Part shown: in pieces, positions 1 to 31,600 of the stretch
Position numbering within the stretch: the first letter of the stretch is position 1
Layout: every line of letters starts with the position of its first letter
DNA from: Pantoea phytobeneficialis
Lineage (GTDB): Bacteria > Pseudomonadota > Gammaproteobacteria > Enterobacterales > Enterobacteriaceae
Reading direction: 5' to 3'
NCBI RefSeq assembly: GCF_009728735.1
Contig: NZ_CP024639.1
Coordinates: 259,018 to 290,617, forward strand
DNA length: 31,600 nucleotides
Notes under the pieces: generated by a model
What the model was told of the DNA's origin: nothing
Databases searched by the model: none
Seen by the model: only the letters and a program-made list of their open reading frames with translations
Translations under genes and position numbers: made by a program

Positions 1-71
1 TTTTTCCCGTTGCCGGGCAACAGGCAGAGGTCGAGTTTGTTTTTACTGACATCAATACCGAGATAAATCAT
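1..71 (-). CDS. IS110-family transposase, N-terminal fragment cut by the window edge
   Basis: The ATG is at 71 on the minus strand. The 23 visible codons read MIYLGIDVSKNKLDLCLL followed by PGNGK. GIDVSK with Asp at residue 7 is the first catalytic motif of the DEDD (RuvC-like) domain of IS110 transposases, which act as RNA-guided recombinases. A purine-rich GGGAGC lies a few bases before the start. The gene runs off the window, so the serine-containing Tnp domain cannot be assessed. Confidence 0.85.
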   Translation of the reverse strand, partial: MIYLGIDVSKNKLDLCLLPGNGK

Positions 72-91
72 AAGACAGCTCCCTTTCACAT

Positions 92-247
92 GAACCATCA
101 CGCCATCTTGCCTTGTACATACGAAGTCAGAGCTTCTGGTTACCGTTCAGAGTAGATGCTGGCGTGAAAGGAGAAACGGAGGGCTTTAAGCTACGGCACA
201 AGATCGGGTCTTAAGCGGCGCGACAAGCTGCCTCCGTTTCGTGTAAC
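92..247 (-). ncRNA. Candidate IS110 bridge RNA (left-edge copy)
   Basis: This is the mirror of the copy at 31345-31500 and identical in sequence. Two stems are visible on the minus strand. The first is a 10-bp stem (231-240 with 173-182) closing a loop that contains the REP-target copy at 213-223. The second (99-108 with 157-166, with an internal bulge) closes another loop. In IS110 elements with the bridge RNA 5' of the transposase, the target-binding loop precedes the donor-binding loop, which fits this order. The RNA ends are not defined by the sequence; the limits are approximate. Confidence 0.6.
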
Positions 248-280
248 GGGTAGCTAACCAGTTACAACTTCAAGATACAA

Positions 281-30696: not shown

Positions 30697-31230
30697 ATGG
30701 CGAACGTTGGTATTTTTTTCGGCACTGATACGGGCAAAACCCGCAAGATCGCTAAGATGATCCACAAAAAGTTGGGGGAGGTGGCAGATGCACCGGTCAA
30801 TATCAATCGCATCTCTCTGGAGACTTTTCTTTCCTATCCGGTTTTGGTACTGGGCACACCCACCCTCGGCGATGGTCAATTACCTGGCCTCAATGCGGGC
30901 TGTGAAAATACCTCGTGGGGGGAGTTTGTGGCCGAGCTTAACGGGGCCAGTCTGGCGGGTAAAACCGTTGCCTTATTCGGGTTGGGCGATCAGAAAGGTT
31001 ACCCTGATAACTTTGTCAGCGGGATGCGCCCGTTGTACGACGCACTGAAAAACTGCGGCGCACAGCTTATCGGGCAATGGCCAAATCAGGGATATGAATT
31101 CACCCGCTCAGCGTCACTGGAAGAAGGCGCTTTCGTTGGACTGGTTCTGGACCAGGATAATCAGTATGACCTTACCGAAGAGCGACTGGATGCCTGGCTG
31201 GAGAGTCTCAGGCCAGCAATTGTAGAGTAA
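30697..31230 (+). CDS. nifF: NifF, flavodoxin electron donor to nitrogenase
   Basis: 177 residues. The FMN phosphate-binding loop is at the N-terminus (GIFFGTDTGKTRKIAK), followed by the long-chain flavodoxin features GTPTLGDGQLPG and LFGLGDQKGYPDNF, and the C-terminal GLVLDQDNQYDLTEERLDAWL. I start at ATG 30697, 5 bases after AGGAGG and downstream of the sigma-54 promoter; a longer reading from GTG 30604 would include the promoter itself. The reduced flavodoxin passes electrons to the nitrogenase Fe protein. It ends 21 bases before a REP-like palindrome that carries an IS110 insertion. Confidence 0.96.
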   Translation: MANVGIFFGTDTGKTRKIAKMIHKKLGEVADAPVNINRISLETFLSYPVLVLGTPTLGDGQLPGLNAGCENTSWGEFVAELNGASLAGKTVALFGLGDQKGYPDNFVSGMRPLYDALKNCGAQLIGQWPNQGYEFTRSASLEEGAFVGLVLDQDNQYDLTEERLDAWLESLRPAIVE

Positions 31231-31251: not shown

Positions 31252-31311
31252 GCGGCGCGATTTATCGCGCTGTTTTCTGTGTTGTTAACCCCACGCGATA
31301 CATCGCGCCGC
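31252..31311. repeat. REP-like palindrome 3' of nifF, at the IS110 junction
   Basis: GCGGCGCGATTTATCGCG (31252-31269) pairs with 31294-31311 with one mismatch. It is the same unit as at 281-337, in the same orientation, and shares the following GTTTT. Here the right arm touches the IS110 left end, while the left arm is intact and, read on the minus strand, continues from TCGCGCCGC into TACGCG. REP units commonly sit at gene 3' ends and are known targets of IS110 elements such as IS621. Confidence 0.75.
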
Positions 31312-31344
31312 TTGTATCTTGAAGTTGTAACTGGTTAGCTACCC

Positions 31345-31500
31345 GTTACACGAAACGGAGGCAGCTTGTCGCGCCGCTTAAGACCCGATCTTGTGCCGTA
31401 GCTTAAAGCCCTCCGTTTCTCCTTTCACGCCAGCATCTACTCTGAACGGTAACCAGAAGCTCTGACTTCGTATGTACAAGGCAAGATGGCGTGATGGTTC
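31345..31500 (+). ncRNA. Candidate IS110 bridge RNA
   Basis: Stem 1, GAAACGGAGG (31352-31361) with CCTCCGTTTC (31410-31419), closes a 48-base loop. The loop contains TCGCGCCGCTT (31369-31379), an 11-base copy of the target-IS junction at 31303-31313, and CCGTAG (31396-31401), whose complement CTACGG would be the right half of the target. Stem 2 pairs CACGCC and ATCT (31426-31438) with AGATGGCGTG (31484-31493) and closes a second loop, presumably donor-binding. The order 5' target loop, 3' donor loop, then transposase is that of IS621-type bridge RNAs. Exact RNA ends are unknown. Confidence 0.62.
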
Positions 31501-31520
31501 ATGTGAAAGGGAGCTGTCTT

Positions 31521-31600
31521 ATGATTTATCTCGGTATTGATGTCAGTAAAAACAAACTCGACCTCTGCCTGTTGCCCGGCAACGGGAAAAAGAAAACCAA
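31521..31600 (+). CDS. IS110-family transposase, N-terminal fragment cut by the window edge
   Basis: Twenty-six codons are visible, starting MIYLGIDVSKNKLDLC and continuing with a Lys-rich PGNGKKKT. Asp7 in GIDVSK is the first acidic residue of the DEDD RuvC-like domain. A GGGAGC ribosome site lies just upstream. The rest of the protein is outside the window. Confidence 0.85.
   Translation, partial: MIYLGIDVSKNKLDLCLLPGNGKKKT

Follow-up and report, generated by a model that had tools for sequence, protein, structure and literature searches.

At its right edge (31313-31600), the 31,600-nucleotide stretch of Pantoea DNA that we analyzed (the window) almost certainly carries, to judge from its sequence, the left end of an element that belongs to the IS110 family and is of the IS621 (bridge RNA) type. 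We put at roughly 95% the probability that this element is recombined into REP repeats at a CT core under the guidance of a bridge RNA encoded in its left end. The REP repeat that this copy interrupts lies downstream of a gene for a flavodoxin (30697-31230), named nifF from its position beside nifL, nifA, and nifB, and the contig terminates at the right edge of the window (Table 1).

In the mechanism that we propose, excision of the element as a circle would join its ends into a promoter, from which the bridge RNA (31327-31510) would be made. One loop of this RNA would pair with the REP target TCGCGCCG-CT-AC and the other with the joined ends of the element, ACGGTAG-CT-TGTAT, and the transposase would recombine both DNAs at the CT core. 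For transcription, transposase binding, and strand exchange we lean on the analogy with IS621, and these steps would proceed as they do there. The proposal is built on the junctions, the identity of guide and site, a covarying RNA structure, free and empty target sites, and the covariation of guides and sites in relatives, each of which was observed here.

Table 1. Observed and predicted features of the element and its surroundings in the window
Feature	Position	Strand	Observation
Second copy of the same left end	1..279	-	Core 280-281, guide 213-223
Intact neighboring REP, opposite orientation	31255..31270	+	
Interrupted REP, left half: TCGCGCCG (left target) and core CT	31293..31312	+	TCGCGCCGCT at 18/18 left junctions
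Core dinucleotide CT, left junction	31311..31312	+	CT on both sides of the element at 13 loci with both ends read
Non-coding left end of the IS110-family element	31313..31520	+	18 identical copies, 281-299 aligned bases
TATCTT, -10-like box	31315..31320	+	17 bp downstream of the right-end TTGACG in the joined ends
Predicted bridge RNA: 5' stem-loop, target loop, donor loop	31327..31510	+	5' end (31327) inferred
Short 5' stem-loop, ahead of the two loops	31327-31349	+	Addition to the earlier two-loop reading
Target-binding stem-loop	31352..31419	+	Stems 31352-31361/31410-31419 and 31364-31367/31406-31409; inner hairpin 31380-31383/31389-31392
Left target guide CGCGCCGCT	31370..31378	+	Equals the site at 18/18 left junctions; covaries in relatives
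Right target guide GTAG (CC ahead, 31396-31397)	31398..31401	+	Complementary to CTAC(GG); CTAC 21/21, GG 11/21
Target-loop handshake CT	31402..31403	+	Both pair with AG at the element right end; scheme from PMC11208158
Donor-binding stem-loop	31421..31510	+	Outer stem 31421-31428/31503-31510; inner hairpin 31456-31459/31466-31469
Left donor guide ACGGTAAC	31446..31453	+	Against ACGGTAG-C at the right end, 7/8; assigned by comparison with IS621
Right donor guide ATGTACAAG	31472..31480	+	Against CT-TGTAT
Donor-loop handshake GC	31481..31482	+	First base unpaired with the target G before the core
Transposase gene start (MIYLGIDVSKNKLDL...)	31521..31600	+	Interrupted by the contig end

Junctions of the element

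The window's own genome (G000) has 18 copies of the left end, at 100% identity. At each of their left junctions TGTATCTTGAAG comes directly after TCGCGCCGCT, and a search of the same genome for right ends returned 21, each reading GACGGTAG and then CTAC; it follows from these left and right reads that the element sits between two CT dinucleotides. The first-pass annotation had named two observations that would count against it, insertions of the same element at unrelated sites and ends away from the predicted CT core. Instead, the same REP site was found at every left and right junction, and all 21 right ends meet the CT core.

That annotation had started the element at 31302 rather than at 31313, its first base, and had reported an 11-base match between loop and junction. 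The matching sequence, TCGCGCCGCTT, occurs four times in the window (31303-31313 and 31369-31379 on the plus strand, 279-289 and 213-223 on the minus strand; chance expectation, 0.04), the four sites being the REP/IS junction and the guide for each of two IS copies at the window ends. Ten bases of the match are indeed target. The eleventh (T, 31313) is where the element begins, and we dropped it from the guide because the uninterrupted site reads TCGCGCCGCT-AC, 31313 lies inside the element, and the loop base that matches it differs among relatives. The nif-bearing window is bounded by two element copies in opposite orientations, with left ends inward and the right copy at the contig end.

All 17 other loci with a left end have a gap of 100 N within the element or right after its readable part, and at four of these (L012, L013, L019, and L025) no right end comes after the gap; the scaffold may be misjoined there. 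At one further locus (L045; G000 C4:223900-225900), a single assembly gap has an element right end on each flank, both pointing away from it, a sign of a misjoined scaffold or of two adjacent copies. Because of the N gaps and the contig end, the full transposase of the window element is unreadable, and only two protein fragments can be read, both matching IS621 and ISCro4.

Free and empty target sites

Uninterrupted TCGCGCCGCTAC occurs 549 times in G000, compared to 7 occurrences of a reversed-pattern control. We joined the flanks of 13 insertions and compared 8 of them with four Pantoea genomes. In G687, which is of the same species as G000, 7 of the 8 joined sites align whole and without the element (five at 98 to 100% identity, two at 92% and 88%), while for the eighth (L014) the alignment starts 22 bases left of the junction and extends only to the right. 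A comparison of the guide with empty REP sites in the same genome or in relatives had been suggested beforehand, and both the free copies and the seven empty sites fit the guide.

The 14-base target predicted at first stood through CTAC, present at all 21 right junctions, and less well at its final GG: CTAC is followed by GG in 11 cases, by GA or GT in 4, by AA or AG in 5, and by TA in 1. ACGG is found at 11/21 right junctions versus 197/596 free sites in G000 (549 + 47; p = 0.053), and the right guide beyond CTAC is therefore only a trend. The REP arm near the LysR-type gene (329-342), which had been taken for a close match to the target, reads TCGCGCCGCGACGG and makes a poor target because CG stands where the CT core belongs. 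In another genome (G240, C5:606208-607078), TTGCGCCGCTAC is repeated at a regular 174-base spacing, forming a tandem array of a REP-bearing unit.

Structure of the predicted bridge RNA

The two consecutive stem-loops described earlier were borne out both by folding, with a z score of -2.0 and 5 of 200 shuffles as good, and by covariation in 15 sequences; the predicted single-sequence fold is stable but not extreme. In an alignment of 15 related elements with 35 pairs, 95.2% of the cells pair and 13/35 pairs have changed on both sides, 11 of the 17 pairs in the target-binding stem-loop showing such double changes. The covariation score was 0.294 versus 0.193 in shuffles, none of 500 shuffles equaled the real alignment in pairing, double changes, or score, and sliding the partners lowered pairing to 38 to 52%. 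One of five covariation measures, the number of further pair types, showed no excess (28 versus 28.3 in shuffles). Rfam at gathering thresholds returned no match in the window. We built a covariance model from the RNA alignment of the 15 elements, and the predicted bridge RNA was found in 14/61 genomes of the genus and in 7/394 genomes from the order, with G000 in both sets.

Within the target loop, the match of the left guide extends one base 5' (31369, T), and the CCGTAG noted before is on the loop's 3' side at 31396-31401. In the donor loop, the left guide agrees with ACGGTAGC with a single mismatch beside the core, and the right guide fits CTTGTAT with two flipped bases of the IS621 scheme. 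The notion of a bridge RNA with a REP-directed guide is supported by the junctions, by the free and empty sites, and by the IS110-family transposase of the G685 relative.

Transposases and relatives of the element

The transposase of the relative in G685 scored 218.2 bits against NCBIfam NF033542 (cut-off, 140), the model of IS110-family RNA-guided transposases, and two relatives (L073 and L028) showed both PF01548 and PF02371 of Pfam above cut-off, corresponding to a DEDD RuvC-like domain and a C-terminal Transposase_20 domain. In L073, a complete relative, the gene stops at 2661, with the right end of the element at about 2680. The protein fragments of the window element are closest to G669 (79% and 88% identity), followed by G685 (71% and 84%). 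In a tree of 12 transposases, built without L030 and L063, in which no frame was found, and without G188 and G000, the REP elements of Pantoea (G685 and G669) and Cedecea (G065) form one clade with support of 100/99. A search of the genome contigs with the G685 transposase returned no relative, and a search with the donor-loop DNA pattern returned 24 stretches.

Three further relatives showed peculiarities. L031 (G069) has a bridge-RNA match whose upstream left end has apparently been replaced by other DNA, and its guide fails to match the flank (4/9 positions). L064, in a genome of 1.7 Mb (G315), has two bridge-RNA matches on one strand (167-328 and 1501-1661), about 1.3 kb apart and with different target loops. 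In L063 (G575), both site and guide finish in CC, not CT, at the core position.

Predicted junction promoter and handshake bases

A promoter across the joined ends has been reported for IS621 (PMC11208160, PMC11208158). The joined ends of the window element would read TTGACG, 17 bp, and TATCTT, which resembles a sigma-70 promoter at the level of sequence only. TTGAC is present in 10/15 element rows, at a spacing of 17 in 7 and of 15 in 3, the right ends of G669 and G065 being shortened in this count so that their -35 box is not covered.

The handshake is also in print for IS621 (PMC11208158). In all 15 elements with a readable right end, the base that follows the right target guide pairs with the terminal base of that end (14 Watson-Crick pairs and one G-U) through G-C, A-T, and T-A pairs, and the next target-loop base pairs in 11/15. 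In the donor loop, the handshake base and the target base that precedes the core form a pair in 11/15. Elements with C before the core have a handshake G, and three with G before the core (L052, L032, and L033) have a handshake C. The exceptions are the window element, G669, G685, and L063; in the first three (with L072 and L073) G stands both at the handshake position and, in the target, just before the core. L060, for which the right end was not found, likewise has a donor handshake mismatch at its actual site. Read most simply, these pairs would mean that in the Pantoea branch the target changed and the old donor-loop handshake base was retained. The second handshake base of IS621 is also imperfect (PMC11208158).

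The donor-loop mismatch of the window element is one of two points that would fit a bridge RNA system that has become inactive in the window's strain, the other being that no intact transposase is readable in the assembly. We regard present inactivity as unlikely: the N stretches are repeat-associated assembly gaps, transposase frames of 333 and 337 aa are open in sister elements, the 18 left ends are identical, and the spread of the element was recent, given that seven of the eight sites are empty in the same-species genome.

Covariation of guides and target sites

For a wider view, guides and sites of related elements were entered by hand and compared, taking the best of seven registers for real and shuffled pairs alike. 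Among 24 elements, 193/216 guide-site positions matched, compared to a mean of 120 in shuffles (0/20,000 as high). With six rows added (L031, L077, L078, L081, L082, and L083, matching at 4, 5, 5, 3, 8, and 5 of 9 positions), the 30 elements gave 223/270 versus 143 (0/5,000 as high), and without the five REP-clade elements the count was 178/225 versus 119 (0/5,000 as high). Repeat copies of one element, the second L064 match, and the short L037, L038, L043, and L044 were left out of both sets.

Within the REP clade, guide and site agree to single bases. Elements with the guide TCGCGCCGCT sit in TCGCGCCGCT in G000 (18/18), G687 (9/9), and G669 (1/1). In G685 the guide is TTGCGCCGCT, and 10/10 copies have T at the varying position (9 TTG and 1 GTG), while the free sites of that genome are 103 TCG and 105 TTG (p = 0.001 for the bias of the copies toward T). 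In Cedecea, the guide of G065 is TATCCACCCT and 3/3 copies sit in TATCCACCCT, whereas in G188, of the same genus, the guide is TATCCGCCCT and 15/17 copies match it in full, one of the others lying at TATCCACCCT and one at TATCCGACCT. G is present in 16/17 copies of G188, versus 76 A and 24 G counted by hand in the first 100 of its 172 listed free sites (p = 1.6e-9). These tests take the copies as independent, and their flanks are distinct. The Cedecea spelling has no occurrence in G000, G687, G669, or G685, and TCGCGCCGCTAC occurs once each in G065 and G188.

A preference for C was not detectable in G000 (18/18, p = 0.23) or G687 (9/9, p = 0.58). Since 549 of the 596 free sites in G000 already have C, the C spelling offers no test within that genome, and it is G685 and G188 that carry the single-base claim.

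Taking these data with those on the handshake, we lean toward the view that, in this small IS110 clade, the target guide follows the host's REP spelling down to one base (C/T in Pantoea, A/G in Cedecea), and that the Pantoea branch switched REP family through its target loop, left the donor handshake base behind, and still spread to many copies.

The same data bear on whether the transposase protein alone could recognize the REP palindrome, in which case the target copy in the left end would be a regulatory structure or a by-product. In favor of this, REP palindromes are conserved, and the Pantoea sites share more than the bases matched by the guide (GCGATAAA upstream). Such recognition would leave unexplained why guide and site change together by a single base between G685 and G000 and between G188 and G065, why distant elements that insert outside REPs change guide and site together by whole sequences, and why 0/10 copies in G685 sit at the C spelling, which is as common there as T. 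We therefore hold recognition by protein alone to be very improbable and retain RNA-guided recombination.

Comparison with known systems

REP-specific insertion by IS110-family elements is in print, and ISPa11, ISPpu9, and ISPpu10 each have a single insertion point within a REP, used by all of their listed copies (6/6, 7/7, and 7/7) (PMC1525189). Insertion at a fixed point of a REP is shared by the window element; theirs are Pseudomonas REPs, and a guide was not yet known at the time of that description (PMC1525189). ISPa11 belongs to the IS1111 type and so might suggest an IS1111-type element with a seekRNA here as well, an assignment that is barely credible given that the long non-coding region lies upstream of the transposase gene and not downstream as that type requires, that the bottom-strand guide comes before the top-strand guide, and that IS621 is the nearest solved relative besides ISCro4.

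The bridge RNA has likewise been described, together with its covariation with targets (PMC11208160). With IS621 the window element has in common an IS110-family transposase, a predicted RNA in the left end, target guides of 9 nt on the left and 4 nt on the right, the CT core, the right donor CTTGTAT, REP targets, a predicted joined-end promoter, and the handshake bases of the target loop (PMC11208160, PMC11208158). It differs in using another REP family (TCGCGCCGCTAC), in its distant transposase (whole-protein match of the G685 relative, E = 7.9e-50), and in a donor-loop handshake base that fails to match the target. The closest solved protein by sequence is the ISCro4 transposase (PDB 9t56; E = 5.2e-50).

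Natural redirection between related elements is in print for ISEc11 and ISXne4, where guides and sites also changed together (PMC11187229). Those elements are of the IS1111 type and their site has largely changed, with 3/13 bp the same (PMC11187229). In the clade of the window element, by contrast, the changes are of single bases inside a REP family, and there is also a switch from one REP family to another. Among the titles listed for the open-licence literature outside preprints, we found none on the window element or on the tracking of host REP spelling. The element appears to be an RNA-guided element of known type that is retuned host by host; what looks fresh is the tracking of host REP spelling by single bases and a donor-loop handshake base unpaired with the present target.

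Raw sequence is enough to read the target of this predicted bridge RNA, and dozens of natural insertions allow it to be checked. The elements of Pantoea and Cedecea amount to a natural mutagenesis experiment, in which one enzyme type is combined with one-base changes in the guide and corresponding ones in the site, and the control is provided by many unused sites in both spellings. The unpaired donor base would be a natural exception to the handshake pairing of IS621, relevant to both the working and the design of bridge RNAs. If true, a clade that tracks REP spelling would document in nature how guides are reprogrammed step by step and which bridge RNA base pairs are dispensable.

Matches of 60 to 90% to the left end were also seen in 1,307 plasmid records, mostly of Klebsiella and Escherichia, so relatives of the window RNA are common on enterobacterial plasmids.
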